A DNA stretch of 64,000 nucleotides from Tomocerus qinae (Eukaryota; Arthropoda; Collembola; Entomobryomorpha; Tomoceridae). Location of the stretch: contig CM034546.1 in assembly GCA_020055645.1 (NCBI GenBank), positions 135,677,875-135,741,874 of the forward strand, in the 5' to 3' direction. A program made the position numbers and the translations under genes. Under the pieces are notes generated by a model. The model saw only the letters and a program-made list of their open reading frames with translations. It was not told where the DNA came from and did no database searches. Shown here in pieces: positions 65-33,603 of this stretch; position 1 is the stretch's first letter, and every line of letters starts with the position of its first letter.

Positions 65-1259
65 CTATATTCCTCCGCCAACATGTGCACGTACACGATA
101 TTCTTTACTCAGCCGAGCTTTCTGTTAGGGTATGTCATTTCTTATTTGCGGAAGGGGATTTTCGGTCTGTCTGTCTGTGTATAGTGTATATATCTAAACT
201 ACTCATTTCTCCATGTATAAAAGGTTTGTGACATAAGTTTCGACTTCTAACCAATAACTTTCGACTTCAAACCAATTATTTCGATTTCAAACCAAATATT
301 TCGACTTCTAACCACTTTTTCGGCTATAACATTCGTTCCAATTTTACTTGCCTGATACACGTGACCTTCTTATTGCTCACATTTGTGTTATCACAGTTAA
401 TTTACCTTAATAAGGGAAAGTATATGGGCAGCTTCTTTAAAGCAGTTGTTTTTGAACGATCCTTCAGCATGTAGCTCAGCGAATTGGGTTTCGTCGATAT
501 CCGGACAAAGGTGCGGAATCCAAGTGAAGATTAAAAATTGCACCCTGCTTTGAATTCCGATCTACAAAAAATACATTAGTAAAAAATACTTGAAAATGAA
601 AACGTTTTAGAGTTATGGAATTTGTCTATCTTTTTGATATGACCTTATAAAATAAATTACAAGATTAAGACAAGACATATAATAGTATTAAATTGTACGT
701 CATAGTTGGTGCTCTGTAGAATTTCTACAAAGCTTGAGATCGCCTGTTGATTTTTAAATGACTTAATGAATAGTTTCTCATCAATATCAGGTACAAATCC
801 AGGGCAGAGACTTTCAACAGCTATAATGATGTGAATCATAGTTAATGATATCAGTTGGGAATACAATTTTGATGCATCAGACTTGCAGAATTCGAATCCA
901 CCCTAAATAATAATTTGAATATTTTTAAATGAGCTTTCAAGGGTTGACTAATTTAAAATCGGAAATAAAGTAATTTCTCACCAGTAATACACCAACTAAA
1001 AATTCAGCAATCTGACGAGCGCCGTTAGATCCAAATTCTTTCTGAATTAATAATGCTTTTTTGGCAGCATCATAGAAATACTTCTCTTCAATAGAAACGA
1101 ATAAATCAAAAATCGTTCTATGAAACGCATTCAGTTCTTTCTCAAGATTGCGACTGCGACTCAAGGTAAAGTTTTTTCTCCCATTGTCTGGGATAAACCA
1201 TTTAGACAACCAGTGATGTCTATTTTGACGAAATGCAGCATAATAGTTTATTTTGCATC
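65..1259 (-). repeat. Module 4 (X-Y-Z) of the repeat protein, C-terminal
   Basis: X is 1259-982, Y is 902-699 and Z is 561-406 plus a possible last exon 121-65 ending in TAG. Motifs WLSKWFI, AKKALLIQKEFG, ARQIAEFLV, PDIDEKLFI and FKNQQAISSFV match module 3. Lengths of Y are identical (204 nt) in modules 3 and 4. The terminal exon is supported only by an acceptor and matching phase. Confidence 0.6.
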
Positions 1260-4200
1260 CTAAGGATAAAAAAATTTAAAATTGATTGAAAGTTATCAAT
1301 GACGAGTAATTAATTTTGTACAAAGATTTAGCAGAACATTCCCAATGTAAAGTAAATGGACTGTGACTGCACCGTTAGGGTTGACGATACCTTGTGATTG
1401 TCGTCTGAGTACCATCTGAGACTTGTCTTTCTGCACGCTGGCCTCTTTGTTAACAGGCAAAGATATATTCTTACGACCAAACACTATTTGAATTGAAACA
1501 TTAAATTGTTTATGTCCTTGCTTGGAAGTCTCATTATAATAAAACGTACCTTAAAAGGCTTACAACAAAATATTTACCTCTGTCCACAGACTCTTGTTTA
1601 ATAACAACTTCACTTCCACTGCTTACAGGGTCTAATTCTCTTTCCGAAATGCTTTCTGAATTTATTAATTCAGTCGTAGTACTTTTAGCCGTTATATTGC
1701 AGTTGACCTCGTCCTTTAAGTCGGGTTCTATATCTGTTGTTTGGATAACTTGAGCAGCTGCTACATTTTGGTTACTGCAACCCGGGACATCAACTATATT
1801 TTCAACATATACATTCCCAACGTCAGAAGGAAGCTCTGCATTTGACAAAACTAATGATAAAAATATAGTAATAAATAAAAGACATCAGGTAGAGTATGAC
1901 TTCTTTAACCAATAGGGATTTGAGCTGCTGGTAAAACTAATTCATAATTTTTAAATGCAAAAGATCATAATTTGCACCACAACATGTAGTCACCTTGGGG
2001 TTTTCCAACATCCTTGATAATTTCATCTTCCTTGTCATCTGCCACGGATGTGGGTGAGGTAGTCAACATGTTAACCGAAGAAGACGCATCAATTTGAGTA
2101 TTTTCTTCTACTAAATTCATCATTTCTGGGGCAACATTTTGAAAATTTCCAATTTCCATGCCATCGATACTCGCGCTGGAGTTATCTTGAGTCTTTTCCT
2201 TATTGCTTCTGAAATTTACAAAAAGGGTCACTTTATATCTTGAATATAATCATAAAAACTATAACGTATTTAATTGGAAAATAGTGAACCGAATTGTTGA
2301 AAACTCTTCCTTGTCGTACGAATTTATTTCTTCGATATACTGTAACAAAAAAGTGTGCACAAACAATGAATTCAATCGCTTGACATGTTAATTAGAATTA
2401 ATTTCTGTTTAAAACCTTCTATTCTGATAAAGTGTTTTTTATTTGCAAAGTTTTTACAAGCAAATCACATTGAAATATATTTAAAATGGACGATTTATTT
2501 ACCCGGATCATTTTATTTACTATAAAGCCTTCCATAAACCCATTCCTTGTGGGCAACGCACGAGAATTTATTTTATCAGCACTGCTATCAACAGAGATGT
2601 AAGGGATCCAAGTGTCAATTATAACTTGTACCATACATTGAACAGATACCTACAAATATAAAATATAAATCAACAATTTATCATCTTTTTGACATTTACA
2701 TACTATTTTAGTATACAATAGAATACAAAGATTGTACTAAAAGTATTTAAATTAAAAAATACTTATCTTGGGAACGTAATACGGAATATGTTACAGATAG
2801 AAGGACCAATTAAAAAATAAATACTCATGAAATGTATAGAATATTGCAGAGTGAAATGTATGGAAGAATACTATAAGATTAAATTACCGGAAATACAATG
2901 TCCTGGAAGCGTTTTACAAATCGTGAAACCGCCTGTTGATTTTTAAAGGCTCTGATAAACGGTTTCTTATCAATGTCAGGCAGAACACCTGGACAGACGG
3001 TTTCAACACCAATAATAATGTGGATCAATACTAACGAAATGAACCGCGACGACACTTTTGATTCGTAAGACTTGCAAAAGTCAAATCCTCTCTAGAAAGG
3101 CAAAAATAGATAATTGACACATTAACTATCCTATTTACAAAGGATAAAATTATCAGTATCAAGTCTTCTCACAGTATCACAATTAACAGTGAAAAAATTA
3201 AACTGAATTAAAAACTTGAAAGTTAAACAAATTAAAGCTTTTACATAAAAAATTGCTTACCAGTAGTTGACTGACTAGAAATTCGGCAATCTGACGAGTA
3301 CCATTAAATCCGAATTCTGCCTGAATTAAAAAGGCTTCTTTTGCAGCATCATAAAATTTCTTCTCTTCAACTGGAAAGAATAAATCTAAAACTTGCTCAC
3401 GAAACTTGTCCAACGCCCAAAAAAGACTGGGGCAAGGATTGAGTGTTCGGCGACTGTACTTAATTTGAAAAATAGTTCTGTAATTCCGATCTTCTGTCAC
3501 AAACCATTTTGACAACCAATCATGGCATTCAATAATGTGATCTATTCTGCGTCTGAGTTCTAAACTGAGTCCTGTAATATGCAATGATTAATTATTTTAA
3601 ATGATCAAACAGGTGATTTTTTATAATGGACTCTTCAATTCAATGAATTTATAAAATTTAAAATACAATTTGAAAAGTTAATTTACTTTGAGGGTTTGAA
3701 GGTTTTCTGTCAACTAGTTGACTTTCTGGCACAGTTGGACGATTTTCAACACTGACACTTTCATCGATGTCGTAAATAGAAGCCGGGGTATTCAAAGGAG
3801 CTAAAATCACAATTGAAACATTATTAGACAGTTGATAGAAATTATTATTTATTATATAGTTACAGTTAAATATTTAAAAGGTATTTTTTAACGCCATGAA
3901 TTTTTTGGGACCACCCCAAATTGTCAACACCTTTTTGTCAACACCTTTTTGTCAACAGAATTATACATGGTTAGGTTAGGTTAGGTTAGGTTAGGTTAGA
4001 ATAGGTTATAGTGTTGACAATTAAGTGTTGACAATTCGGGGGTGAATCGAATTTTTGGGTTGTTACCATTTCTATTTTCCAAGTTTTTAATTGGAATGCT
4101 GGCTGAATTTATTGAGACTGTGGTTGGATTTTTAGCAGCTATATCGGTGTCAGTCTCTACTTCATCCTCGCTTGAATAGAGAACAACAGTGGCTACTTCC

Positions 4201-7200
4201 TCCCTCTGCTGACTCTTGTCAATTTGAGCAATGATGGATACTTCTTCTCCCTTACCATCTTCAACTTCTACTTCTACTCTCCTTTTCAAATGTAAATGTG
4301 CAGGAAGTGCTACATACGAAAAAATATATTCGAGCATTACAAAAAGTCAAATAAATGCTAAACTGTGAATAACTTACGCAAATATCGGATTCCTCTGCAA
4401 TGCCAGAAATAATTCCCGTCTATTTTAGAAAGATATTCGTCAACAAGACAACTATTCCACATCTGCCTCATCCAATACAATATTCGTCTATTTTCGTGCT
4501 AAATGAACATCATTATGGTTGCATTGTAAATATTTAATTAACATTCCTTTCAATAAAACTCAAGGGGGAAATTTTTTAGTTCATCTTGTCTATCCACTAA
4601 CTACTAACCAATTCCATGGACGTATGTTCAGGTCGGCTTTTGCATCATCTTATTATTTATACGATTTGAAATTGAATAATTGTAAAGAACTAATTTGTCT
4701 ACTTTCTCAAGTTTTAAATCTGTTTATAAGCCATACCTTAACCAAAATTAGAAGCAAAATATTGCAACTGATGAGCTAACCTAAAAATTTTCTTGTAACA
4801 GCATTTAACATAGATCGTTGTAGTAACAATGTGATTGTTTACGATATTTTTGAACAGAGTTGCCTGTTTGAACATACAACAATGGAATGGCTTTTTGGGT
4901 TAGTGATTACTATCCATGAACTATTTTTTCTTACGGTATTTACATTTTTTAGAATTGATACTAAATCTCGGAAACCAATCACGAAAGCATTTGTAGAAAA
5001 GGCTTTGCTATATGCTCTTGACATTTTTGGTTTAAACACATTCATAGACTGCACTGCTTCCGCGCAGATAATCACATGGATAATAAGAGCAGCAACCAAT
5101 CGCTCATGTAACGATACAGAAGGATGTCCTCCATTTCGAAATAGATTTTTCCCGCCGGTCTAATAATAGAAAATATTTATCATTATGATTTTTACAGATT
5201 GAATTACTTTAGAATGTTGGACACAAAATAAATGTTACCCGAATATTACCCGAATATTATATATTACCCGAATACGAATTAATAATTACATTAATAATAA
5301 TTACATTAATAAATAAATTCAAAAACTTCTCATAAATTCTAATTACCAATCGTTCTGTTAATAACTCCGCCACGATCCCAACTTGATTGTTTCCAAATAC
5401 ACTTTCGATGAAAAATGCTTCTTTTGCAACATTAACAAACTTTTCCTTCTCAGTAGTTAGAAGTAAGCTTGTTACATTTCTAGAGAAATGTTCGATGTTG
5501 AACTCAACATATTTTCCATACAGGGACGTGGCAATTAGTCTATTGAATGGTTTTTTCACAGAATATATGTCGGTAAGCCGCTTTTTCGTTTCTTCTTGCA
5601 TTGGAAATTCTATTATCCAATCGACTTTGATTAAGTTCTCTGTGACAATAATGCTGTCACAGCTGTCGCCTGGAAGATAAATTAAATGTTCTTAATTTGT
5701 ATTGCATTAAATTTTGATAAAACATTAATGAAGCGATGTAGAGAAGCAAACTTACCAATGGTTTCAACCGAAATTTCCTGCATATCTAAATCCCTTTCGT
5801 TCATATCAAAATTTTCAATTTTTAGATTGAAGTCGTGGACATCTACTTGATGGCTACCATTTTGGATTGTTTGACTGCTACTATATTCATTCGGAACCTG
5901 GTAATCTGGGTATTGTTGGACTACAATGACAAAAGAGAAACTAATTTGTCGATTAAATAACTTAACTTAAATAACTTATATTAACGAAAAATATGCCAGA
6001 AATAGAGTAAAATAATAAATTGCATCTTAGAAACAATTAATGTAAAAAGCCCGTAGTCCCTGGACAAAAAGCTTTAAACTTGGGGAAATAAAAAAAGGCT
6101 ACCTCTCAGTTTGCGCCAAAAATCTCTTGAATCTATAGTCTGCAACGACTGAGGAGAAAAATACTGACCCAATCGCCACCGCAAAGAATATAGTTCATTT
6201 TGTTTTGGAGGTGTGGCCTGAAATAATTAATACTTGTTATGGTACGCATAAAAAATTGCATTTACTAACCTTGCATCCTTAAATCAGCATTATTTGGTGG
6301 ATACCATTTTACATAAACAGGCTATACGTCAGTAATGCAATAATATGTGTTACATGTTGGTTGGGTAGATATACCCCTATTCATTTATTTAAAACCAAAC
6401 TCGACGACAAACAATATCACAATGTCAAAGAACTATTTTCTGTCAATTATGGTTCTGATTACATTTAAATGCAAATAATATCTTACCTCTGTCACCAAAT
6501 CTCTGAATAAACCTCCTCGCGTGAAAATAGATTCGAATTGTTCACAAAGTAGCGAGGATTGGAAATTAGCCCTTTCAACGCCAATCATCAAATACGTTAA
6601 ATATAAAACAATCATCCGAATATATACCGTGTTTTTACTATTTCTAACCTGAAATAAAACATTAAACAATAATTTTAGAAAAGACAAATGACATTGACTA
6701 CGTGAGACAAGGATAAGTCACAGATGGGAATTACCAATCTTATGTTAATGTCGTCTAACAAGCATCTTAATCCTTTGTTCCCAAATTTATTCACAATAAG
6801 AACACAAAATTTTGCTCTCTTCATTAACTCGACTTTCGTAATCGAGCCATTTGCCCATTTCTTACGAGGAATTGTAACCCATCCACGAATTTTTTTTAAA
6901 TCGGAAGTTAATGGAATGTTAAATATTTCCTTGTCACTAATTTTAAAATGGAGCAGCAAGTGTGGACTGTCTTCTAGCTCGAAATGTAGATACATTTTAT
7001 CGGGACCTAAAAATGTTAAAATTAAAGATTAAAAATAGCTATATGTACATTTGCTATACATACATTTACAAAACAATGACATTTAAATTGAAGAACATAA
7101 ACATCGTGATTTTATTTTGTATTATCTTACCATTTTGCTGATTTCGACCAGTTCCCCCCGTAACTCCATGAGGACTATCGTTCCGTGAATTGGAGGATCC

Positions 7201-7782
7201 TTAGAAAAATAATAAAAACTTTTAATTTCCTTACAAAAAATATGCACGTCAAAATATTTAACTGACCATGATTACCAACGGGATTTTGAGTGGTTTCAGT
7301 TGGTTCGATATCCCTTCCATTTAGCTGCGGAATTCCATTTGCCATCCACGTACTTTGTGGTGGTGCTTGAAAACCCGTTAAATAAGGGTAGGGATTTTGT
7401 GACTGCCACCGCCAATTTTGTTGAACTGAAAATTGGCAATTCAATTACAATAAACAAGATGAAACCACAAACCAACACTGATGACGTGATGACCAATGAC
7501 AATGACTGAATTGTTAATTAATGCGAAAGGATGATGGATAACTGTGATTATTAATTGTGGTATCAGAAATGAATAATTAAGTAAAAATACTTTTGTTAAA
7601 TCTAGTTTTGATTTACCTGCTGGGTAGATTGGGGGTGGATTAGGATTCAGTGGATGAACAGCACTAGCTGAGGGCAAATTCTGGAAGTTATTACTTTGGC
7701 TGGGACGATAATGAAAGTTATCCTGGATAATTATCGGCGAGCCAGGATCACCACTGTAATTTGGAGCAGGAGATCTACTCAT
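65..7782 (-). CDS. Four-module repeat protein, unrecognised family (about 23 coding exons)
   Basis: Proposed coding exons, 5' to 3': 7782-7617, 7425-7267, 7199-7131, 7006-6735, 6648-6487, 6217-6103, 5920-5756, 5669-5347, 5159-4935, 4498-4378, 4309-4067, 3800-3687, 3571-3261, 3091-2888, 2649-2503, 2339-2290, 2208-1994, 1850-1578, 1483-1391, 1259-982, 902-699, 561-406, 121-65. Every junction has GT/AG and keeps one open frame, giving about 1373 residues. The start is the ATG at 7782 (MSRSPAPN...), followed by a Pro/Gln/Asn-rich N-terminus. A unit X (about 95 aa, ending in a motif like RQIAEFL), Y (about 68 aa, helical, amphipathic) and Z (about 40-55 aa) occurs four times, separated by acidic or Ser/Thr-rich linkers. 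No signal peptide or membrane segment is evident. The last 57-nt exon and the 50-nt exon 2339-2290 are the weakest calls. Function unknown; I recognise no domain. Splitting into two or more genes is possible but no internal module begins with a convincing ATG. Confidence 0.72.
237..333. repeat. Short tandem repeat, about 22-bp unit
   Basis: Four imperfect copies of a unit like TTTCGACTTCTAACCAATAA lie downstream of or within the 3' end of the four-module gene, in the proposed last intron. Confidence 0.8.
2290..3571 (-). repeat. Module 3 (X-Y-Z) of the repeat protein
   Basis: X is 3571-3261, Y is 3091-2888 and Z is split into 2649-2503 and 2339-2290. X (WLSKWFV ... AKEAFLIQAEFG ... TRQIAEFLV) and Y (GFDFCKS ... 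PDIDKKPFI ... FKNQQAVSRFV) are very close to module 4, so these two modules duplicated last. The 50-nt exon was placed because reading phase cannot be kept without it. Confidence 0.65.
3911..4044. mobile_element. Small inverted-repeat element (MITE-like) in an intron
   Basis: The ends form a 20-bp imperfect inverted repeat: CACCCCAAATTGTCAACAC at the left and GTGTTGACAATTCGGGGGTG at the right. TTGTCAACACCTTT is repeated inside the left arm. The element sits in the intron between exons 4309-4067 and 3800-3687 and encloses a TTAGG tract. Confidence 0.65.
3970..3999 (+). repeat. Interstitial telomeric-type repeat (TTAGG)n
   Basis: Five to six head-to-tail GGTTA/TTAGG units lie inside the small inverted-repeat element. 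TTAGG is the canonical arthropod telomere unit; here the tract is short and internal, so it is not a chromosome end. Confidence 0.85.
4378..5669 (-). repeat. Module 2 (X-Y-Z) of the repeat protein
   Basis: X is 5669-5347, Y is 5159-4935 and Z is 4498-4378. The X end (GIVAELLTERL) is intermediate between module 1 and modules 3/4. Z shares the pattern ID-x-x-x-FW with module 1 (TIDSRDFWRKLR and KIDGNYFWHCRG), which supports the exon calls. Confidence 0.65.
6103..7006 (-). repeat. Module 1 (X-Y-Z) of the repeat protein
   Basis: X is exon 7006-6735, Y is 6648-6487 and Z is 6217-6103. X ends phase 0, Y is phase 0 and Z ends phase 1, as in module 2. It is the most divergent copy: the X end reads RCLLDDINIRL where modules 3 and 4 have RQIAEFLV, and Y is the shortest, lacking the FEFCKS-like start of modules 3 and 4. 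Confidence 0.65.
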
Positions 7783-9482
7783 GTTGAATATATATTTAAA
7801 TCATTTATTTTAAACGACAGTCAGCAGTAATTATTGGTTCATCGATAACAAAACTATCCGAGCAAATGATAAGCAAGCGACGAGAGAACAAAATCAAAAC
7901 AACTAGCAAAGCACAGAAGCGAAATGCCTTTGGCCCACTCACTATTATGTTTGTACATCTGCCGCGAAGTTAAAGCAAGGAGGTCTCCATTCTCCAATAG
8001 TCTCCATACGCCCAACAAAGTAACAAGTACGTCATAAGGACAGCATTATAATTATGACTCATAATTGTCTAATTCTATATCTAGCATTGTATTATTGTAT
8101 AATAATATAAGTCCATGTCTATTGGCCATTAAGATTGGGGGGGGGGGCATAGGGGGCAAATTCCCCCTCCCAAAAATGTAAGAAAAGAGTAATATTTTCC
8201 CATAATACCAAAAAGTTTCGAGCTTTGCGTGATTTTATGTGATTTTTAGGCCATTTTTCCCTAGTTTAGACAAAAAAGAGCGCCGCTTCCTTAGTCCTTA
8301 CCCTCTCCGAAATCGACTTCTAAATAAACAAGGTACTGCACGGGGCGATGGGTTACATAAATGGTGTGATTAAAATTTCATTAAAAATTGTAACTTGTAA
8401 CCCTCAAACATTGTAGTAAACATTGTCAAGAAAGTTTTTTGGATTCGGACAACAGAAAACCGAGTTTAAATATTTTTTGTAACCTCTTAACTGGTCCGAA
8501 TTTCCAGTGTTTTTTAAAATTCGGTTTCCCTTTTCGTTCACTAAATTGACCCTGTGTGCTTGCTTGATCGAATACATGACTTTTGACACCGAAGTAATGG
8601 GTTGAAGACAGGGATGCTAAGATTATTTGTTTCGTTAAATTAAATGGGTGCTCAAGATTAATAAAAATGAAACAATGTTTTTTTAAGAAATTGACCAAGG
8701 TACCTATTTAAGTCTTTTGTATATATAGCTACAGAAGTTGTGACGCAATTCTTTTCAACGCTTGAAGATATTCAAAAATTTTCGAATGTGGATGCAATAA
8801 AAAAATTAAAACGTATTTCGAAAATGGTCGATTAAACTTTTAGAAGTATCCTAAAATATTTGAAAGAGCTGGTCCGCATTTATTTGTCATTCATTCACTA
8901 AAAATTACAATACTGATACAATTATACAATGCCCCAAAAAATTAAAATAGCTGGTTTTTTGGGCAAGAGTCTTTGGGCTTTAATATATATTTCTTTGCAC
9001 ATAGCTATTATAATACAATACACAGTATTTAACTCATAAATTAGTGATCTATTAAATATGTACTAAGTACTAAGTACTAATAATATTTGCGCATTCAGAA
9101 TTTATCTGCGTTTTATTTAATAATATTTTACCAATCCACTTTTCTGGTTAATAGTGAATCTCCTATATATTATTATATTTTTAATATTGATATGATAATC
9201 CCTGTCTAATGATATCCTAATTATTATGCTCAATATCCTTTATTACTGCTATAAAATGCTGTTCTAAATTATACATAAATGTAAAATTAAGGACTTTACT
9301 TTCATTGTAAGTACAATAATTTTAAAATTGGTATACCAGTATATAATAATTGATAACTGCACATAAGTGGTTTCTATAAAAAATAATAATTTCTCTACCT
9401 TTCTGTTTTCATGTAGCCCGGAAGGTCCACTCACTACGAAAACAATAGTCACAGCAAAAACACATCTCAATTTCACTTCAAA
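7783..9482. other. Intergenic, no gene seen
   Basis: This holds the upstream flank of the minus-strand four-module gene and of the first receptor-like gene. It contains a poly-G run near 8138 followed by a C-rich stretch, resembling a decayed dispersed repeat that recurs near 16120, 24490 and 29940. AT-rich elsewhere; no convincing coding exon. Confidence 0.5.
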
Positions 9483-10742
9483 ATGGCCTCTACTGTTATG
9501 CTTAAGTCGTTTGATAATTATTTCTACATTTTCGGAGATAAATTTCACGCATCATTTTTAACGTGGTGTTCACAAACCAAAACGTTCCATCTTAATTCAA
9601 GAATAAAAGAATTGGCGATCTGGTTCTTCTTTTTCATAGTAGGAGTTTTGCTCAATGCATTTATTTCAGGAACTCTGATTATGCAAATATTTACGCCATT
9701 TCTATCGGCCGATAAAATTATTACATTTGCAATGATGGTAGTCGTGCTCAGTTTGTCTGAGTTCTTCAACGTCGTTTTATTCGTCAAAAGAAAACATTTC
9801 TGCTATACACTGAACTCCGCTTTTAATATGGATTTAACGCTACTAAGTAATTTTATTTAACAATTCAAATAATTGGTTTAACTTAATTTTGTATTTCATG
9901 GAATTTTTTGGTTTTGTGCATTTACAGGAAAGTATCGAAGTCGGTGGGAGTTTTGGGACTTTCAGAAATATGAAATCTTGGCAATGTTAATGAAAGTAAT
10001 AACTGCTATGGGGATATCCACAGCGGTCTTTGTGTCAATTTCATTCGTCACGGTTTCCTTCAGCCCGGTTCTTTATCTTTTTCAAGTTTTACAGTTAGAT
10101 TCCTTGATAAGTAGAGTAATAGCTGTACCTTTTATTACGATTTTGGTAGTTCATTTATGGTTCCCTGTTCTCCTATTGACTTACTGTGCTTTCGTATATG
10201 CAATTATTGTTATATTTTGGCTACAATTAATCACTGCAAGGAAATCAAAGAGTTTGAAATATTTCAAAACGAAAACGTATTTCCGAAACCATCCTTTAGT
10301 TACTCTGCGTATTTATAAAGCGTTGGGAGTTTTAAATTTCGATATAAATTATTTGCTGGTGAATCAATTAGGACCGTCTATTTTGTTGGTTGCTGGATTG
10401 TTAAACATCTTGGTTAATTTTGTTACTATTAAAATGTACCACATAATGTCAATTCAAGGCTACATCGTTTATCCTCTGATGGCAGTTATGGTCCTCATAC
10501 TTGAAGTTCTGGTCATTCCAGCCTTGGCCTTGGTCAACACAAAATCCCAGGAATTTATTCAGCGTAGCATGAGACATTACTACAATCCGATCATTCGGAA
10601 AATGATCAGGACCTGTCGTCCATTGGGATTGGTAATGGGGCCATTTTTCACCATGAAGAGGTCGACTACCTTTACTTTTCTTCAAGTGGTGATGATACAT
10701 ACGATGAATTTAATGTTACTAGTGAATATTCCCATAGTATAG
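9483..10742 (+). CDS. Seven-TM receptor-like protein, array copy A
   Basis: Two exons, 9483-9846 and 9928-10742, with an intron after codon position 1, give 392 residues. The predicted hydrophobic segments lie near residues 44-68, 78-103, 141-166, 185-220 (long, perhaps two), 270-290, 300-323 and 367-388. There is no signal peptide. Family hallmarks are RKSKSL after segment 4, VNTKSQEF after segment 6, a CRPLG...GPFF motif, and STTFTFLQVV starting the last segment. Length, topology and tandem expansion resemble arthropod gustatory/odorant receptors, and the last segment loosely recalls the Gr TM7 signature, but I cannot confirm that relationship. The ATG at 9483 aligns with the starts of copies C, E and G. 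A poly(A)-like AATAAA lies near 10796. Confidence 0.85.
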
Positions 10743-11005
10743 CTTTAATTTATTTTCCTCGTTGTATACAATATTATAAATATATCCATAAAATATAATA
10801 AAATTGAAATTTGGACCTATAAACAATCTTAATTGCTCTTTTAACAACTTTTATTAATTTTTAAGTGTTGGAGGAAAGAATGGCGGCCATTTTCGTATTT
10901 TTAGCAAACCAAGCATTTTTGGTCTGCATGGCCTGATTTTTAATGTCAACCTTACTTATTACTTATATTCATTTCTTGAAGATGAATAAAGGCGGACGCT
11001 AATTT

Positions 11006-11243
11006 GTGGGATTCTACAAGAAAACCGGCGCAGCGAAAAAAATACGAAAACTGTTTTAATCCATCAAAAAGTAGAACCGTTTTCTGTCCAAAAAATGACA
11101 CTCGTCCCATATTTTTAAAACACTCCTACGAATTTTAATAAATATTGAAAGTCAACGCAGTCCTTTAAGCTTGATTGGCTTTAAATCCATTTTCTAGCTA
11201 ACTAAGTCTAGTAGGCTGCGCCGGTTTTCTTGTAGAATCCCAC
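11006..11243. mobile_element. MITE with 29-bp perfect terminal inverted repeats
   Basis: The left end begins GTGGGATTCTACAAGAAAAC and the right end is its exact reverse complement through 29 bp (including CCGGCGCAGC). Both sides are flanked by ATTT, a possible 4-bp target duplication. Non-coding, 238 bp. Confidence 0.8.
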
Positions 11244-13390
11244 ATTTGTAAACATTTCCATGAATTATTTTTCATTTTTACGATAATTGCAAGTATATCA
11301 TTTGGGTAAATCAGTGAAAATTTGGCACTTTGGCAGTTGAGCGGTTTGGCAAATTTTTCCAAAGTGCCAAGCGGAAGGTGGGGTTTGGCAGTTAATTACG
11401 AACTGTGATTGGTGGAGAGCATCTGCCAAGACTTTGCGCGACTGCCAAGCTAAAAGGCATGTGCAAATATTTGTGCACTTGGTCAAATCCCACTTGTTGT
11501 TATGACTACAACACCAAAGTTATTCACAAGCACAACATGAGTGGTAAGCCAAAGTAATAGTTGCTTGTAGTCATGGAGATAATCGTCTTACATGATTTCA
11601 AATAAATTGACTCAAATGAATTTGAAAAGTGAAATCAAAAAATATCGAAATTGCAGTTTAGCAAACATACTGCGCATGCCTCAGAACTGCAACTTTTACA
11701 TCTGCCAACTTGCCAAAAGTCCACTGATTATCCCAATTATTCACTATTAACAATTGACACAAGTAACATAGAAACGACTTACAAGATGCTCTTATTTCCA
11801 TAAATGTAGTCATGTAGTAACATCCGGCGGGGCTCGCTAAGAGGTTCAACGCCGATGTTAGCATGACAATGTCACTATGCAATTACAAGTCGTATATTAT
11901 GACAACTTTTGTTTTATTCATTGCTTCCGAGCAAATAGCTACATCCGAGTCTGGATTTACCCCATAATTTGAGTTTATTATAGCATTTACATGCCATTAG
12001 GTAAGTTTATAAAACATCAGTGGCTATTTAGCTATTTCCATAATTACAATTTGTAATAAATACCTTGGATAATATAACAGATATAATGTCTATTGTTTCA
12101 AGCGCATAAAATAATTCCTGAAGAGGCCAAAAATGTCGAAATAATTATTACGATACGCGGAATTATTTTTCAAACAGTTAATGTTTAAAAGTTTATTTGA
12201 TTTTCGATGGAAATAAAAAAAGGTTTTTATAAAAAACTAGGTGAAACCTAGCACATAAGATGTGCTAGAAAAATGCTGAAACATGTAATATTCGACTGCG
12301 ACTGCATATTAGCCAATGACAGGCCGAAGATTTCAACCGCAGAAAATTTCATAAATTCCCTGCGCGGCGTGCTAACACGAATTTCATTCATCCCTTTATT
12401 TATTGTGCAATTCCACCTCAGCTATATACTATTGGTATGATATAGATAGGTAGGTAGTTGATGAATATCTTTTGATAAACATCCCATCCAACCCATCATG
12501 ACATCCGGATGGGAAGGTATCGGTTCTCATCCAGCACACCAAACATACTCGATATCAAAGCTTAGAAGCTTAAAGAATATTTCGTAACAAGTATCTACGT
12601 ACAGGTTGCTTAATTCGAACATTTATTTATATTTGTTTGAATGCGAATTAAAAAAATAACATGTCATTTCTTACGGTCAGCTATTTCAATCCTTGTAGTC
12701 GTAAAAATAAGCTTCTTAGATAGTATGTGGTCCATTGTTTGTTATTAGATTATTCGAGTTGTTCGATTCACTCCAAAGAATGTGACAACCAAATTCCTTC
12801 CAGCCTATAATGACCATCCAGGCTACTGTACCCATCCCATCCAGCCCATCATCAACATTTAAGAAATTGCCTCCATCCAATCCAGCCCATTACCGACATC
12901 AAAGTAATTGTCCTTCCAGTCCATCCAAACATTCGGATGGGATGGTTGTTTACATCTATGGTGCGTTGGTATGCAACATACTTAAAAACATAAGGAATAT
13001 TTCACTACACATGTCCAAACTTCGCGTTTATATACTTTAATTTATATACGTAAAATGATATTTATCAGCCTCCGCCGGTAAACCTCGGCTAAGGTGGCTC
13101 AACCGATGAAAAATGGGGGATCAACCGCCACCGCCTTCTATAATATAATCGCACTAATACCTGATTATCTATGTCTTGGTAGGAGAGCTTAGGGAACCTA
13201 CATATATTACGTAACGTAAAACCCCCTCTCCCAAGTTTAGCGCAAGAGCAAGCTGTAACTCTTTTGGACATCGCCTCCTCCCATCAACTATACATAAACG
13301 TAATATATGCACGTTCCTTGAAAGCACGAAAGCAAAATGCGCATGCCCCCTCCCTCTAAACCAACTAAATGAGTTGTTTCATCTTTACTC

Positions 13391-13640
13391 TACAAAAATG
13401 TTTTGCTTTTTTTATAAAAAAGATCGGAATAAGATTTTTTAAAAGCCGTCCTTTTTTGCCATTTTTGATGTAGCAGCGTGCCATATTTACTTTACATGTA
13501 AATAAGATAAAAAAGCTAAAAAGGACTGCTTTTTTTAGAAAAAGTAGTACATTTTACCTTTTTTGAAAAAAGGAGTACATTTTACCTTTTTTGAAAAAAG
13601 GAGTACATTTTACCTTTTTTGAAAAAAGGAGTACCTTTTG
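13391..13640. repeat. Dispersed repeat ending in a 28-bp tandem array
   Basis: Three to four copies of a 28-bp unit (GTACATTTTACC followed by a T6/A6 hairpin) start at 13547, 13575, 13603 and 13631. The preceding 150 bp, with GATGTAGCAGC and TTTACATGTAAATAA motifs, matches 51955-52145, so the unit belongs to a dispersed family. Confidence 0.75.
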
Positions 13641-14056
13641 TTCATTGGTATGTATACTGTACACGGAATAACGATTATACGTTAAGAATATGTTTCAATA
13701 TATAATTATAGTGAAATTATATAATTATTATAAGTATACTACCTCGATTGGTATGGCGTTGTCAATTTTACAGTTCTACTAAGATTTCGTACTTAAATTG
13801 GACCATAGCGCTTACAATCGGCCAAATTGTAGTGCATAGTTCTTTTGGAGACATTGATAATTTGTTCATGGTTTATATATTTGATTATTATACCTTTGTT
13901 ACTTCAAAGACATTTTCTCCCTAAATTTGCTGCTTTGGAAAATTATCAGTTGCAATACTTCCTGTTATAATCCAAGTATTTTCAGTAATGGTAGCAAATT
14001 AATACACATTAATATCAGTGCTCTGCTCCGTTATATTCAATTTATTAGTGTACAAA

Positions 14057-15744
14057 ATGACTTCGTCTGATATGCTTCGGTCTTTAGACAAGTTTTTCTA
14101 TATTTTTGGAGACACATTTCACGGTTCCGTTTTCAATTGGAATTCACAAACTAAAAGACTATATCCAAATTCAAATAAAATTAAACTATCAGTTTGGGCC
14201 TTCTTTTTCGTCGACAGTGTTATGTTAAATTTGTTTGTTTCTGGTACTCTATTAATGCAAATATTTACACCATTTCTTTCTGTCGAACAAGTCACCGCCT
14301 TCACTGCCTTAATTATAATATTATCTTTGTCCCAGTTTTTTAATATTATTTTGTTCCCTATTAGAAACCAATTTTGCTCTGTTTTTAACGGCATATTCAT
14401 CCTGGACGCAACACTGTTACCTGTTACGTAAGACGCATCATTAGTGCTACTGTATTATTTAGTGGTAATAATTAGAAAGCATTGTTGAAAAATTGTTAAA
14501 TTTGTCATTAAGGTTGGTTAATAGCGGATTTACTTAAGCATATACACTTTGTGTGAATTACTTAGGATTAGATTGTAGACCGTATTTACTTAAAACTCAA
14601 AATTTCCTAAAAGTTACAGAAGGTGAACATTTCGGACTTGTGGTTCAGAAAAATTTTAAATTTCTAATAAGTTTTGAATTATAACGTTGGCGGGAATTCG
14701 TGTTTTCCCCTAACGCTATATAATTCAAAACGTATTAAGTTTTTTTTAATATTTGGGAACCACGAGTCACAGTTTCCGCCACTTTTTGGAAATTTTGATG
14801 ACTTTTGGTACTATAATAAATACGGGCTACGCTCTAATCCTAAATAATACACACAAAGTGTATGCTCAAGAAGTTACCCCACTATTAACCACCCTTAGAA
14901 TGTCTTTTTTAATTTATGTCCAGAAAAGTATAAAGATCGATGGGAGTCGTGGAATTTTAAAGGATACAAAATTCTGGAGATGATATTGAACCTTTTAACA
15001 ATCATGGCAGTATCATTATCTCTCTTGGTGTCAATTACACTCGTCTCAGTTCCATTCAGCCCTGTGGTTTATTTATTTCGACTTTTACAATTAGACTCAA
15101 TTTTATTAAGATTACTAGCCGTACCTTTTTTTACCGTGTTTGTCATTCATTTATGGGCTCCCACTCTTTTGAATATCTATTGTGGTTTGTTTTATGCAGT
15201 TATTGTAATATTTTGGCTAAAACTAATCACAACAAGAAAATCCAAAAGTGTAGCTCGTATAAAAACAAAATTGTATTTTCGTAGGCACCCATTGATTGCT
15301 TTACGTATCTACAGGGCATTGACAGTATTTAATGGTTATGCTAATTATATCGTGTTACATATTGCCGGTCCTGCAATTATTCTAGTGGCCGGATTGCTGA
15401 ATATCTTTGCTAATTTCCTTACGGTCAAAATGTACGATATTACTCCACTCAGTGCCTATATTGTTTTTCCCTTGATGGCAGTCATGGTCTCCGTTACTGA
15501 AGTGTTGGTCATCCCAGCTCTGACTTTGGTCAACACTAAATCCCTGGAATTTATTCACGAAAGAAGGAGCCACTGCAATCCTTTCATTCGGAGAATCGTA
15601 AAAAGCATGAGCCCATTGGGATTTGTAATGGGACCATTTTTTGTCATGAAGAAATCGACCACGTTTACTTTTCTTCAGGTAGTGATGACACATACAATGA
15701 ACATGATATTGTCTGTCAATGGTACGAATCATTTAACCGAATGA
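14057..15744 (+). CDS. Seven-TM receptor-like protein, array copy B, splice-donor disrupted
   Basis: Exon 1 starts at the ATG at 14057 and exon 2 runs from 14924 to 15744 (272 residues, fully open). In copies A, C and E exon 1 is exactly 364 nt and ends in phase 1; here position 364 is 14420, but the 7-nt string CTGTTAC is repeated at 14414-14420 and 14421-14427, so the GTAAGA donor at 14428 is in phase 2. Splicing from it to 14924 gives an early in-frame stop. A weak alternative pair (donor 14423, acceptor ending 14928) would restore the frame with one residue change. All hydrophobic segments and the TTRKSKS, VNTKSLEF and STTFTFLQVV motifs are intact. Either a young pseudogene or a copy with shifted splice sites. 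The intron is enlarged by a MITE. Confidence 0.75.
14509..14897. mobile_element. TA-flanked foldback MITE in the intron of copy B
   Basis: Left arm starts AAGGTTGGTTAATAG and right arm ends CTATTAACCACCCT, flanked by TA on both sides. The inverted similarity continues inward for about 90 bp (ACACTTTGTGTG, TTAGGATTAGA). The ends and the TA flanks suggest mobilisation by a Tc1/mariner-type transposase. Confidence 0.75.
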
Positions 15745-16635
15745 CTGCTGATCAAAATGTGCTCAGCTCATATTTATATTAATGAATGTTCAAATTGAAT
15801 GCCAAAAGTATAATAAATTAAATTGTCTCTTATTTTTCGATTGGAATTGCAACTTATTTTTATGACAGCATATTTTTAGTATTGATTAATGGTATGAAAA
15901 ACAAAAACAACTTAATATTGCTAAAAATGGCAAACGAAATTAGGTTGTTTATATTTAAAGCACTAAGGATTTCTAAAAGTAGCAATTTTAGTCCTATTAG
16001 TAGGTATCAAGCACTCTCCCGTAATGAAAAGCTAAAATCTAGTTTTTTATTGTCCTTCACATCTGTGGTCTTTTATTTTGGTTTGCATTAACGTAATGAC
16101 ATCAACTAAGGCACATATCCAGGGGGTGCAAGGGGACGAAGGCGAAACACCCCCTAATGCTGAGAAAAAGTGAATTTTTCTTAAAGAAATAAAAAATTGC
16201 ACTTCTAGCTTCGCATAAGCTACTCACTGATTTTATTCCTAGTGAAATAGAAATGATTTTCGCAGAAATTTTCCGATTAGTTTTCCGAGTACTATTTTCA
16301 TCATTACCATGTGACTACAGCTTTAAACGCCTGTATATAATACTCAGAAAACTAACCACTTGATCGAAAATCATATCGATTTCACATGGAATAACATTAG
16401 TAAGTGTTTGTGATTATTTATTGTTGGGTCGCTCAACCAATTTTCTGGATACATGGCTGATTATACTGATAAAACATTCCCGAATTGTTGTCCTTCAAGA
16501 TCTACCCAAATATTACAGTAATTCTCTTGTTGCAAGTATCGAAACAGCAATCTATCAAGGAACTGTCGTAATATAGCAGTGTATGTACTATAAAGAATAA
16601 AGACGGCTACTTCATTCGAATTGTCAGTTTGAAAA
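15745..16635. other. Intergenic, no gene seen
   Basis: Spacer between copies B and C. A decayed repeat beginning ATATCCAGGGGGTGCAAGG (near 16116) belongs to a dispersed family seen elsewhere in the window. The 15 bp before the next ATG (TTGTCAGTTTGAAAA) resemble those before copies E and G. Confidence 0.5.
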
Positions 16636-17985
16636 ATGACTTCGTCCGTTATGGTCAGGTCTTTGGACCACTTTTTTAACATTTTCGGCGATACGTTTTA
16701 TGCTTCCTTTTTCACTTGGAAGTCACGAAGTAAAACGCTTCACGTAAATGAAAATAAAGTACAATTGTCTACATGGGCAATATTTTTTTTCATTAGTATT
16801 ATCTTTAATTTGTTTATTTGTGTAACTCTATTAATACAAATATACAGGCCATTTCTTTCTGTCGAACAAGTCGTTGCCTTTATTACTTCAATGCTATTTT
16901 TGTCGTTGTCCCAGTTTTTCAATATTTTTATATTTCCCATTAGAAGTCAATTTTGCTATGTTATCAACGGCGTCTTCATCCTGGATGCAACAATGCTACG
17001 TAAGTGAGATTTTAAAAATTATACTTTAGGTATTAAAATTTGTTCAAAATATATTATGGTTCTATTCCGTAGTGACTATTAATATTATTTTAACGAACTA
17101 TAAATAAATACCACATTTTTTACATTTTTATCGAATTTATTTAATGTATTTCAAGGAAGATACAAAGATCGTTGGGAATCTTGGCATTTTCAAGAGTACA
17201 AGATTTTGGAAATGTTATTGAACTTCTTAACAAAAATGGCGCTGTCAACATCTATTCTTGTGTCAATTACACTCGTCTCAGTTCCATTCAGCCCTTTAAT
17301 TTATATATTTCGACTTTTAGAAATAGACTCACTTTTGGTTAGACTAATAGTGTTTCCCTTCTCTACCATCTTTATAATCCATGTATGGGCCTCTGTTCTG
17401 CCTAGTATATATTGTGGCTTACTCTTTGCAATTATCATTACATTTTGGTTGAAATTAATAACAGCTAGAAAGTCGAAAAACCTGTCCTATTTCAAAACAA
17501 AAATATACTTTAGAAGCCATCCATTAGCTGCCTTAAATATTTACCAGGCATTGGCAATAAGCAATATATATTTGAATTATATCTTAGTAAATACCATCGC
17601 TCCTGTAGCTTTGTTGGTAGCGGGATTGATAAACATCTTGATGAATTTCTTTGCTGTCCATATGTACAATAAAATTCCATTCAGTAGCTATTTCTTTTTC
17701 CCTGTAATGGCGAGCATAGTTCTCTTAACTGAAGCACTGGTCATTCCATCTCTCACCTTGATCCACACAAAATCCCTGGAGTTTATCCATGAGACTAGGA
17801 GACACTGTCACCCCGTCATTCGGAGAGTCGCTAAAAGCATAAGGACAATGGGGTTTGTAGCAGGACCATTTTTTATTATGAAGAAGTCGACGACCTTTAC
17901 TTTCCTTCAGGTAGTAATGGCACATACCATGAATATTGTTTTGTCCGTAAATATTACTAATATACTATTGGAATATGAAATGTGA
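16636..17985 (+). CDS. Seven-TM receptor-like protein, array copy C
   Basis: Exons 16636-16999 (364 nt, donor CGTAAGT) and 17156-17985 give 397 residues with a phase-1 intron, the same gene structure as copy A. Hydrophobic segments match copy A. Conserved motifs are TARKSKNL, HTKSLEF, GFVAGPFF and STTFTFLQVV. The acceptor is AAG rather than CAG. Closest in sequence to copy B and to the relic at 19318-20035, so these three form a local subgroup. The C-terminus is slightly longer (ends ILLEYEM). Role inferred only from membrane topology and family expansion. Confidence 0.85.
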
Positions 17986-20911: not shown

Positions 20912-22974
20912 CTATGAAAACATGTTGACTTTTAATTCATTGATTTTGACATTAGCCTTGTAGAACTCAATGTAGCTGTCGTGGATACTGACAGATTTCT
21001 TGGCATCCACCTCGTGTAGACCGTATTTGAGGAACTGAAGAAGCGTCATCGCGGCTAATCTGTCGTTGAAGTTGATTTCTAAATCTGCATCGCAGTCAGT
21101 ACATTGGTTCTCAATGTTTTGTTTATCTTGAGCGAATTTGGAGAATCCCATCCTAGCAGCGATGATAGCGTGACGTGTAGCTGCCACCAAATGCAGACGG
21201 AATAAGTTACGCGTTTGATCCACCAACCTCAAAACCAAATCAATGGCTGTGTTGGCTGATCTTGTGATTCTTTTGCCATCAGGTGATTCAGGCTTCGCGA
21301 TCGGATTTTTGATACGTTGCACGAGTGCCTGACTGAATACGGTCAATCCTGCAGCTGTTCCTCCAAGCACCTGTTCATGGAAATTCAATTTCGGGTTTTT
21401 CCTGAAAAATCAAATCAATTCATGTAAATCTGAAATCATTGAAATTAATTATATTGCAATGCTTTAACCATACGCTTTCTTGTATTCTATATCAAAATGG
21501 AAGGTTTTGTCTTCTGGTTTAAAGTTGATAACTTTCAACTCCAACATCTTCTCCAATTGAGCTTTGATGACAGCCACACATTCGGTTCTTAGTACGATCA
21601 AATAAAAGTCTAATGCTGCTTCGGCGTCCTTGATGTTGTCTAAATCAGAAGGCTGCCATGGCTTTGCTGGACAATTTCCAAAACCAAAGAATGAAACATC
21701 TTCATGAGCTTCAGCATAGCTCCCTTTGACTGGCTTAATGTATTGAGTTTTCCATCCAGGAAAGTCCAATGCAGTGGAGAATTCACCGCCTGCCGGAATT
21801 ATTATTGCAAATTAATAAAAACTGTCAATGAAATTCAATTGATCGGATTCACTCATCACTTACTTCGTTTCCTACGTTGGCCACAAGCTTTTCCTCCCTT
21901 AGCACCCAGAGCAGCACACAAGGCATTTTGATGTCCTATTTTATATGCAATGCATCATTAGAATAATATTATTAAAAAATTACGTCTTTAGGTTATTGAT
22001 TTTACCTGCATCAATAGAACCAGTTGCTCTGCAATTTAGAATTATTTAACATGGTTATAATTTTTGAAGTCAATTCTCTAAAAAACATCGTTTAATTATA
22101 AAATTACCCAGGATGTCCTTCATGAGCAGCATCGCCACCACTAACAGCACGGCCCTGCATGTTTCTCTCGCTTTCTAAATCTCTGTACAAGTCATAAACG
22201 TCATCTGGATCTCCACTGGTAACGACAAAGTGGTCAGCGGTGATTTCTTTGGTTTCTTGGAAATAAGTTTTCTTGGGGATGTAACGTTGGGGTGGTTTGA
22301 CAATTCCATTCACACCTGCTTTTGGAGGATCATCAGCGAAGAGACAGGGAATAATGATACTGGACGTACAGAAATGGGAATTGAGCAATAATGTAGTTCC
22401 CCCGGGAATTAAATGTTCATCCCAAAGATCCCATTCGATTTTGTATTTACGCCCTTCAATCTCAAGTGGCTCATCATCTAGGTCACCCGCATCACTAAAA
22501 TGTAAATTGCGATAAAGGCATGATAATCGTTCAATTATGTATTTTTTACTGAAAATCTATCTCACTGTACCGAATGTAAGCTGAGGCAGCAAAGTATTCA
22601 GGATTTCTTCTATCAGCAGGCATTGAATTTTTCTTCAATGCAACATAGACTCGCTTCCGCTTTTTGAAAACTAATTCGTCTTCCTCTGAAGTGAAGACGA
22701 CTATTTCTCTATTTGTGTCATTCCTCGTCGTCACGTATTCAAATTCTTTACCATTGGGCAGAGTGTATCTTATTTCTCCTGTTGCACGATCCTTCTTTTG
22801 AGTGAAAATCGGATCTGTTAGAAAACAATCTTCTGGGATTTTGTGACCGTACTCCTTAATTAATTTTATGGCTTCCTTCTCAAAAGTTGAAACTTCTCCG
22901 GATACAAAAATTATGAAAGACGACAGAAGACCAACTGAGAGCAGAAGGCTTGTGGCAGCCTGAAGAGAACCCAT
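20912..22974 (-). CDS. Secreted 563-residue protein with furin-type site, copy 1
   Basis: Six exons: 22974-22571, 22494-22108, 22028-22006 (a 23-nt micro-exon), 21935-21864, 21789-21474, 21401-20912, in one continuous frame ending in TAG. The start at 22974 (MGSLQAATSLLL) aligns with the only start of copy 2; an upstream in-frame ATG at 23037 lies too close to the cap site. Residues 1-28 look like a signal peptide. Around residue 295 the sequence CAALGAKGGKACGQRRKRS gives a dibasic RRKR site typical for furin, which would split the protein into halves of about 295 and 265 residues. The C-terminal half is rich in predicted helices and has a CTDCD motif. I recognise no domain. A TATA box lies at 23066-23074. 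Possible poly(A) signal at 20840-20835 (AATAAA on the minus strand). Confidence 0.88.
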
Positions 22975-23065
22975 AGTAGGTATGTAGGAACGAGAGCAGT
23001 CAATTAGTATGTTTCTCTTCTCCCAAATGGCAGCCAATAATAGACATTTTTATTCTCTCGTCCTA

Positions 23066-26551: not shown

Positions 26552-28697
26552 CTATGAAAACATGTTGACTTTTAATTCATTGATTTTGACATTAGCCTTG
26601 AAGAACTCAATGTAGCTCTCGTGAATACTGACAGATGACTTAGTATCCACATCATGCAGACCGTATTTCAGGAATTGAAGAAGAGTCATCACGGCTAATC
26701 TGTCGTTGAAGTTGATAGCCAAATCGGCATCGCAGTCAGAACATTGGTTCTCAATGTTTTGTTTATCTTGAGCGATTTTGGAGAATCCCATCCTAGCAGC
26801 GATGATAGCGTGACGTGTACATGCCACCAAATGCAGACGGAATAAGTTACGCGTTTGATCTACCAACCTCAAAACCAAATCAATGGCTGTGTTGGTTGCT
26901 CTTGTGAGTCTTCTGCCATCAGGAGTCTCAGGCTTCTCTATCGGATTCTTGATAAGTTGGACGAGTGTCTGACTGAACAAAGTCAATCCTGCACCTGTTC
27001 CTCCAAGCACCTGTTCATGGAAATTCAATTTCGGGTTTCTCCTGAAAATCAAATATTTTCATGTAAATCTGAAGCAGATAAAATATATTCCAATGCGCTT
27101 TGTGAATCTTACGCTTTCTTGTATTCTATATCAAAATGGAAGGTTTTGTCTTCTGGTTTATAGTTGATAACTTTCAACTCCATCATCTTCTCCAATTGAG
27201 CTTTGATGACAGCCACACATTCGGTTCTTAGTACCATCAAATAAAAGTCGAGAGCATCGTCAGCATCTTTAAGATGATCCATATCTGTAGGTTTCCATGT
27301 CTTTGCTGGACAATTTCCAAAACCAAAGAATGGAAGCTCTTCATGAGCTTCAGCGTAACTGCCTTTGACTGGCTTAATATACTGAGTCTTCCATCCAGGA
27401 TAATCCAATGCAGTGGAGAATTCACCACCTGCCAGAATTATTGCGGTTAATGAGTCATTCAATTATAATTCCTTCAAATTTTGATTCATACTCATCACTT
27501 ACTCCGTTTTCTACGTTGTCCACAAGCTTTTCCTCCCTTGGCACCCAGAGCAGCACACAAGGCATTTTGATGGCCTATATTAATGAGACATAAATGGATT
27601 AATTATTGATACAGAATAAAGCTATTAATGTATTTAGGTTTAAGATTACCAGTAGTAAGGGCTCCCGCTGCGCTGCAAGTTTAAAATAAGTTGAAATGGT
27701 TAAAATATTTATTGATATAAATCTATCACCGTCAGGTAGGGAGAGTATTGTAATGCCGTCGCTACCATACCCGGGTCAATTTGCTGGTGCTGTAATTTAT
27801 GTATGTAGATTTTATACTTAGATTTAGACTTACCCAGGATGTCCTTCATGAGCAGCATCGCCACCTTCGACTGCACGACCCTGCATGTTCCTCTCGCTTT
27901 CCAGATCTCTGTACAAGTCATAAACATCATCTGGATCACCGCCAGGAACGACAAAGTGGTCAGCAGTGATTTCTTTGGTTTCTTGGAAATAAGTTTTCTT
28001 TGGGATGTAACGTTGGGGTGGTTTGACAATTCCATTCACGCCTGCTTTTGGAGGATCATCAGCGAAGAGACAAGGAATAATGATACTGGACGTACAGAAA
28101 TGGGAATTGAGATTCAAAGTAGTTCCTCCGGGAATTAAATGTTCATCCCAAAGATCCCATTCGATTTTGTATTTACGGCCTTCAATCTCAAGTGGCTCAG
28201 CATCCTTGTCACCCGCATCACTAAAAAAATGTTTCACCAAAATGTGATATCAAAATATTTTGATACAGTTTTTATAAATGCTTTTTAATGTACCGAATGT
28301 AAACGGAGGCTGCAAAATATTCAGGATTCTTTCTATCATTAGGCATGGAATTTTTTTTCAAGGCAACATAGACTCGCTTGTGCTTTTTGAAAACTAGTTC
28401 ATCTTCCTCTGAAGTGAAGACGACTATTTCTCTATTTGTGTCATTCCTTGTCGTCACGTATTCAAATTCTTTGCCATCGGGAAGAGTGTATCTTATTTCT
28501 CCTGTTGCACGATCCTTCTTCTGTAGAAAAATCGGATCCGTCAGAAAACAATCTTCTGGGATTTTGTGACCGTACTCCTTAATCAATTTTATAACTTCGG
28601 TCTCAAAATTTGAGATTTCGCTAGATACAAAAATAGTTAAGGAGGAAAGGAGGCCAACTGAGAACAGAAGGCGTGTCACAGCCTGAAGGAAACCCAT
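26552..28697 (-). CDS. Secreted 563-residue protein with furin-type site, copy 2
   Basis: Six exons: 28697-28294, 28220-27834, 27672-27650 (23 nt), 27574-27503, 27428-27113, 27041-26552. All six lengths (404, 387, 23, 72, 316, 490 nt) equal those of copy 1, with no coding indel. Signal peptide (MGFLQAVTRLLFSVGL...), the CxAALGAKGGKACGQRRKR site and the C-terminal CSDCD motif are kept. The proteins are largely identical; the micro-exon is the least conserved part (ATGSIDA in copy 1, AAGALTT here). Same orientation as copy 1, 5.6 kb apart, so a tandem duplication. Function unknown. Confidence 0.88.
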
Positions 28698-28785
28698 AAT
28701 TTATGTAGAGGAGAACAAAAGCAGGAATGTATTTGTTTCCTCAACCTATGCAGGCAATAATTGATATTTCAATTCTCTTGTCTTG

Positions 28786-29005: not shown

Positions 29006-30806
29006 TTCCTACAAATAATTCCATTTTTAATGATATATTAACTTAGTCTTTAGTTATTGCTGTATTGTATTATCAATCCAAGCATTTCTTTGCTGTCCGT
29101 TATTAGAAGTTAACTGAGTTGAATATATTTTCCATAAAAAATTGTTTGATTTGCGTCGATTTCCGTAAATTAGGCAATTATTTGGTTGAGCCATATATAG
29201 AAACTAGTTAAGATATTTATACTCATTCGACTTTGCGTTTCACGTTGTGAAACAGTGAATGAGTTAAGAGTCTCAGGTACAAAAACTGTCTCCGGAGGAG
29301 TAAATTCTGTCTCCACCAGGCTTATATATTTTCACACTTCATCAGCAGCCCCACAGCATAGAGTTACAAACCGACAAGGGAAACCGCCTCGTCAAAGAGA
29401 CGGATAGTTAGACACTGCAGCGGGGAAGCCTACAAACATTCGGCTAAGTGTTTTATTGTTTTTCCCAAAAATAAGGTACCTTGCTGTGCGGTTAGTTTTA
29501 AATATCAGTCAGTGAACCCCTAGACTATTATAGAAACTATAATACTATATTAAACATTGAGAAAACTACAATAAAAATCATATGACACGGCTAGTCCCAA
29601 ATCGCAAAAAAATTAAATGCTTCCATATGAAGATGGGGTTTTAGTCACCGGTTTTAGTCACTGTATGTAAATAAATTGCACTTCATTTTAAAAGATTGCG
29701 GAGGAGACCTCGCTCATGACTCCCTCCAATCACAAGAATGAAAATTTTTTAACATTGAAGGTATAGACAATGCGTCATATAGAAATTCCTTATAGTGTTA
29801 TAGTTTCTATATATATGGGTTGAGCTGGCTGTATTTATAGACTATTATTGAAGACGATAGACGCCTTCTAATTGGTACTCGACTACCAAATAATTGATGG
29901 TTCAACCAATTTTTATAGCCATCATATACAAGGACGTATTTAGGGGGTGCTTAAGTACCCCCTGTTGACGTTAAGGAAACAAGCAATTAATCTCGCCATT
30001 AATTTAATGAATTCCGTAATTAATTTGTGGATTTTAAGTCCTCCCAGGCTCAGTTTCTAGGTAAGTTTTGTGAATTTAAGTTCAAAAGTACATTTAGTAC
30101 CCACTAGGAACTAAATGCATCAATTTGTCACCTTATCGCTGTCTAAATTAAATAAGTGTTTTTAAATTTTTATTTTGATTAACCTATAATCGGTAAGAAA
30201 CAGTGAATTCCTTCTACTTAATGTTTTCTGTTTCCTTTAAAAGAACTTAGGGATGTAAAATTGAATTTAAGTTGCCGTTAAATCCGAATATAAGTATCGT
30301 ACTTATCAAATTGAATCAAATAAATTAGTAATAAGGGCTTAATTTGTTTGATTTATGGAATACTAAATTTAGAAATTAGAACCCTCTAAATACAATTTTA
30401 GATACGCCCTTGGCCATATAGCTTTTAAAATAATAAGCATCTTAGTAATAATAGTATTTTCAGACGTGTTTTCTAAAGCAAGTAAAACAATCTTACCAGA
30501 ATAAATGTCGTTGATGTAAGTCCATATTTCAATGCTTAAAAATTCACAGTTGTGGTAATCACAGTCACTCTTCTTTAATGTCATCTTAATAAATTATCAG
30601 GCGACAACCAATGTAACTTTTATAACTGTGCACCGAAAAATTCTTTTTTAAATTGGGTGTTTTATATAATTATAGGTTTTCTTGGTCAGTCCACTATTAT
30701 TGTCTTTAGACCATAATTATGGTACCGAAATAAATAACAATGTATACTTTATAATATTGCGTAGGGGTTTTCATGGATTGTTTCCCTAGATTTGTCAGTT
30801 TAAAAA
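29006..30806. other. Intergenic; upstream flank duplicated at copy G
   Basis: Segments 29054-29190 and 30400-30800 match 38880-39001 and 39208-39510 respectively, in the same order. No gene seen. The last 130 bp before the ATG at 30807 are the best-conserved part. Confidence 0.6.
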
Positions 30807-33220: not shown

Positions 33221-33283
33221 ATGGCATCAACTGCTATACTTCAGTGTTTTGACAGCTTTTTCTTCGTTTATGGAGATACGAGA
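33221..33283 (+). pseudogene. Relic exon-1 start of a seven-TM receptor-like copy
   Basis: ATG followed by ASTAILQCFDSFFFVYGDT matches the N-termini of copies A and E, then similarity stops abruptly at about 33281 beside the hairpin CCCGTCCTACGGACGGG, suggesting truncation by an insertion. Confidence 0.75.
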
Positions 33284-33603
33284 AACGCAGCCCGTCCTAC
33301 GGACGGGGAAATAACTGTTGGTTAGCGATCAGGACTTTAGAAATTAATATCATAAAAGATAAAAGTCTGTGATGTCCTAGGAAGAAATTAAAAAGTTTCA
33401 GTAGACACATAACATTATGCCAAGTTTATGTTTATCCTCAGGAGTTTTGGAAGCTGACCCACTTAGCTGTAAACTGCGTTTAGGAATAACGAATTGGCTC
33501 AAAGTGGGTGTGGAGCCCTGATTAGGATTACTTACCCGACGTTTATTACTCATTATTAGGCCTAAAAATACAAAAAAATGTTATGAGGCATTTTAAATGC
33601 AAT

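Follow-up and report, generated by a model that had tools for sequence, protein, structure and literature searches.

What kind of protein is encoded by a gene in which the same group of exons recurs four times, and do the segments between the repeats carry a function of their own? The question is raised by a minus-strand, intron-rich gene of the springtail Tomocerus qinae, found at one end of a 64,000-nucleotide stretch referred to here as the window (assembly GCA_020055645.1, contig CM034546.1, here C1, positions 135,677,875 to 135,741,874). The gene contains four modules, each composed of three exons named X, Y and Z. It belongs to a family of related loci, and the linker between its modules 2 and 3 is conserved and contains two cores that resemble SUMO-interacting motifs (SIMs). 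These features suggest, with a probability of roughly one half, that the window gene and its relatives form an expanded family of nuclear SUMO-binding scaffolds.

A conserved linker with two SIM-like cores

The original prediction described the linkers between modules as unconserved. This description fails for the exon between modules 2 and 3 (4309-4067, minus strand). The window linker is 53% identical to that of the related locus L009, against 16-50% for the module exons, and 69% identical to that of L029, against 43-62%, exceeding all module exons of both pairs. A blind profile search matches it at 8.5e-15, with the next match at 0.083. Two other pairs weigh against this pattern, and the linker is not the best-conserved part in either: L009 and L012 share 51% of the linker and 36-54% of the module exons, while L012 and L013 share 88% of the linker and 94-95% of X2 and module 3. 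In distant copies, linker conservation is about that of the best module exons.

The linker encodes, in order, VSII preceded by Glu-Glu (4230-4241, minus strand), a spacer of 13 residues, and TVVLYSSEDE, a TVVL core with a Ser/acidic tail (4161-4190, minus strand). Both cores are present at all ten loci with a recognised linker, four of which constitute one recent tandem group. The spacer is nearly constant, measuring 13 residues in eight of the ten linkers, 12 or 13 in L009 and 13 or 14 in L029 depending on the register, and 15 in L026. According to a review, a SIM has a hydrophobic core of four residues, and the acidic or phosphorylatable residues beside it precede the core in anti-parallel SIMs and follow it in parallel ones; phosphorylation strengthens SIMs, and CK2 is a known kinase (PMC12751080). 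A core of this kind with such flanks is found in the window and in all ten recognised linkers, by a pattern drawn up post hoc. The same pattern matches one of the 1718 open reading frames (ORFs) in the window, that of the linker, and 5 of 20,000 shuffles of the window linker, figures that overstate the case for a pattern written after the sequences had been viewed.

SIM-like cores also occur elsewhere in the family. At locus L019, seven exon-like stretches of about 28-50 residues (5788-7445) lie ahead of a single X-Y-Z module, as found by a search that demanded lengths divisible by three and assumed the phase. Three of the seven carry DDDVV SIM-like cores, such as LICIDDDVVCV, and the set hints that exons may have been copied in a different part of this family as well. 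Basic stretches are found in two paralogs, PKKKRK in L012 and PKKKRV in L019, which resemble the classical nuclear signal. A literature search returned nothing on SUMO-interacting motifs in Collembola and nothing on the X-Y-Z family.

The cores may have been conserved for a reason with no tie to SUMO, such as β-strand pairing with another partner. This explanation is possible but unlikely. In its favor, SIMs are a loose motif with no single strict consensus according to the same review (PMC12751080), SUMO binding by the linker is a prediction from sequence, and in the L012-L013 pair other parts are better conserved than the linker. Against it, the two cores have acidic residues on the sides expected of an anti-parallel and a parallel SIM, their spacing is nearly constant, and they were kept while module exons drifted to 16-62% identity (window-L009, window-L029 and L009-L012). 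SUMO binding is the reading we prefer.

Architecture of the window gene

The original prediction of one multi-exon gene holds as far as the sequence can tell, and with it the recurrence of a phase-matched exon trio: in every one of the four modules, the end of X and both boundaries of Y are in phase 0. All of the following features are on the minus strand. The Pro/Asn/Ser-rich N-terminus is encoded by exons 1-3 (7782-7617, 7425-7267 and 7199-7131; span 7131-7782), which join in frame at GT-AG boundaries and include a further SIM-like sequence, SPIIIQD. The next part (6103-7006) leads to the module 1-2 linker exon (5756-5920; open, phase 1-1). The part between the 1-2 and 2-3 linkers (4378-5669) gives blind profile matches of 1.1e-18, 7.9e-12 and 9.8e-11. 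Linker exon 12 (3687-3800; open, phase 1-1) precedes module 3, and the part that follows it (2503-3571) was matched blind in X (1.5e-11) and Y (1.5e-15), with Z not found blind. The module 3-4 linker exons (1391-2339), for example 2198-1994, 1850-1578 and 1549-1391 with an optional one from 2339, are open in many chains, and their exact boundaries are tentative; they include VVIKQE, which resembles a sumoylation consensus. Module 4 (406-1259) was matched in X (2.6e-12) and Y (3e-15), while its Z, at 0.26, is at chance level.

Modules 3 and 4 are the closest pair, as originally proposed, with 53% identity over 177 columns. Their ratio of nonsynonymous to synonymous substitution rates (dN/dS) is 0.31 by NG86 and 0.39 by YN00 (190 codons), and because of these values the window gene looks coding. 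The paralogs L012 and L013 give an NG86 ratio of 0.28 (595 codons). Judged from its sequence, this is a real, constrained gene of a family absent from the libraries searched, and it would be transcribed as one unit.

Module 4 (1259-406) might instead lie outside the main transcript as a separate gene or remnant, the main gene ending after module 3. This is improbable: the interval 2649-406 allows in-frame joining with no stop, the comparison of modules 3 and 4 shows constraint, and the C-terminal motif of the family was found neither in the window gene nor in the 9.9 kb past it. A single gene with four modules is the preferred arrangement, and its 3' end is less clear-cut. The last exon of the original prediction (65-121) is doubtful, being open to a stop behind an AG, with a splice from 116 that is out of frame. 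Some 360-600 bases past window position 1, L014 contains a pair of exon-like stretches bounded by splice-like sequences (9513-9277), the second with a Lys/Arg-rich reading that ends in a stop. The pair could represent either the actual 3' end of the window gene or a small gene in its own right.

A family found on one contig

The gene is not single. Protein searches of the animal's own genome, together with a profile scan of 16 stretches that included the window, identify at least 13 related loci, a lower bound given that the genome searches scored only the best candidates. All are on C1 (140,454,167 bases of the 334,443,149-base genome): the window, L009, L010, L013, L012, L030, L011/L029, L019, L024, L025, L026, L027 and L028. 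The scan profiles contained rows from the window, L009, L011, L012, L019, L024 and L025, whose scores are not independent, while the profiles contributed no rows to the detection of L013, L026, L027, L028, L029 and L030 from those loci themselves. The weakest member is L025, with a C-terminal stretch at 0.0016 in the genome search and a module recognized by reading the sequence and with a profile that included L025 itself. L024 shows only the C-terminal motif (3.4e-7). A tandem group at 18.53-18.59 Mb comprises L010 (with L021 and L022), L013, L012 and L030. The last is a broken-up fourth copy that retains the linker and has module exons only as pieces.

Modules 1, 2 and 3 occur in order in the window and in five other loci, L009, L012, L013, L026 and L027, although in L012, L013 and L027 mainly Y or Z of module 1 is visible. 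L011/L029 has modules 2 and 3, L028 has module 2, and L019 and L025 have one module each. Among the fetched stretches, which apart from the window are at most 10 kb long, four modules occur only in the window. The C-terminal motif can be seen clearly in L009, L012, L013, L022, L019, L024 and L025; in L011, L026 and L027 it is weak (0.07-0.2), and the profile scan did not find it in L028 or L030.

Twenty-four module records were assembled, of which 21 with X and Y of useful length entered a tree; three first modules lacking X were dropped, and L010, L030 and L024 are not represented. Third modules form one clade (100/99), in which modules 3 and 4 of the window pair as sisters (93/91). A further group (98/95) joins module 1 of the window with its counterparts in L026 and L009. 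L019 and L025 sit on long branches of unsure placement. The simplest history would be that a three-module gene spread by copying around C1, and that the copy in the window afterwards duplicated its module 3. C1 holds 42% of genome bases yet carries every located family member, a restriction that local duplication and a link to a sex chromosome would both fit.

A module without a known family

The original suggestion that the module matches no known domain stands for Pfam and PDB. The four window modules have no match in Pfam-A at E-values up to 5. Eleven modules matched five Pfam-A families and 19 modules matched nine, with one member each time (best 0.02 and 0.011, respectively) and none at family strength. 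Five C-terminal sequences likewise matched six Pfam families with one member each (best 0.018), amounting to no family, and two linkers plus one paralog module gave none. Searches of PDB chains with hmmsearch yielded five matches to the 11-module profile, none meaningful (best E 0.88, a dynein light chain), and none to the 19-module profile at E up to 10. The C-terminal motif had six PDB matches, which were taken as chance; the strongest (0.05) falls within a charged segment of a V-ATPase subunit.

AlphaFold was given single exons read as contiguous DNA, with four rows each. The 107-residue X of module 2 and the 68-residue Y of module 3 are both modeled as helical, at mean predicted local distance difference test scores of 53 and 67, respectively, too low to name a fold. 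Foldseek returned 38 matches for the X model (best E 2.7) and none for the Y model, with nothing at E 0.001. A helical protein-binding unit is a tentative reading of the module.

Could the family be a distant branch of the SIMC1/SLF1/Nse5 group, in which SIMs and a helical solenoid bring SMC5/6 to SUMO-rich sites? SIMC1, which acts at SUMO-rich bodies, combines tandem SIMs in a disordered part with a C-terminal domain that is helical (PMC9708086), and the SIM-like stretches that precede the single module of L019 recall this plan. The SIMC1 domain described there is one solenoid of 17 helices (PMC9708086), whereas the window family repeats a module of about 200 residues, and no meaningful similarity to SIMC1, Nse5 or SLF1 was found among PDB chains with either the 11- or the 19-module profile. 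Such membership is very unlikely. A viral or transposon origin of the module, as a domesticated or selfish gene, is suggested by dispersed, strongly diverged copies on one chromosome but is the least credible possibility of all: 45 pattern matches of the C-terminal motif in viral contigs included no relative, eight PHROGs families each matched one of 19 members (best 0.00072, taken as chance), and retroposition is disfavored because X, Y and Z occupy separate ORFs in many copies.

A proposed SUMO-dependent scaffold

The nuclear SUMO-binding scaffold favored here would be a protein of about 1,300-1,400 residues, with four helical modules of about 200 residues joined by disordered-looking linkers. 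The modules are taken as protein-binding units that would hold other partners. Core 1, with acidic residues before it, and core 2, with acidic residues after it, would form an anti-parallel and parallel SIM pair through which the protein binds SUMO chains or partners modified with SUMO in the nucleus, and a kinase such as CK2 could strengthen the Ser/acidic core. Valency would rise through copying of modules and, in L019, perhaps of SIM-bearing exons.

A broader proposal is more doubtful. X-Y-Z might be a new animal domain that defines chromosome-restricted, fast-diverging SUMO-dependent nuclear scaffolds, their valency adjusted through duplication of exon groups that match in phase (helical modules for the window gene, SIM-bearing exons for L019). 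If true, the family would provide a natural series of one, three and four modules for learning how module and SIM number sets SUMO-dependent assembly, and would add a domain unnamed in the libraries searched. The multivalent SIM proteins known so far seem to come mainly from vertebrates and yeast. Animals that have been little studied commonly have lineage-specific families that match nothing in Pfam, and a merely lineage-specific nuclear scaffold would be of modest interest; what lifts this family above ordinary ones is its conserved linker with tandem SIM-like cores, together with its copied exon sets.

Other features of the window

The intron before exon 12 contains a hairpin-like dispersed repeat (3906-4048) with five TTAGG units between inverted TTGTCAACAC and GTGTTGACAA blocks. 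It has at least 50 matches on contigs C1, C2 and C3, with 40 of 582 first-look candidates scored. TTAGG is the usual arthropod telomere repeat. Beyond the gene, paired long hydrophobic ORFs of one family (9417-17985 and 30804-40779) appear chemoreceptor-like by eye, and two tandem copies of a multi-exon protein are found at 20912-23049 and 26552-28700. None of three proteins from these neighboring genes, one ORF of the hydrophobic set and two exons of the tandem protein, matched Pfam at 0.01.

Comparison with known SUMO-linked systems

Three known systems resemble parts of the proposed scaffold. The parallel SIM of PML has a hydrophobic core followed by Ser/acidic residues, letters that resemble linker core 2; the modules around the linker differ in having no Pfam family found. 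The most similar plan on paper is that of SIMC1 (PMC9708086), in which a disordered tandem-SIM region is joined to a helical domain, although one large solenoid there contrasts with three or four modules here. Finally, ZNF451 shares a closely spaced SIM pair, one anti-parallel and one parallel, and is described as needing no more than two SIMs and a spacer of eight residues for E3 activity (PMC12751080). The spacer here is about 13 residues (12 to 15 by register) rather than the critical eight, and because of this difference from ZNF451, tandem SUMO docking, not E3 activity, is the role claimed for the linker.
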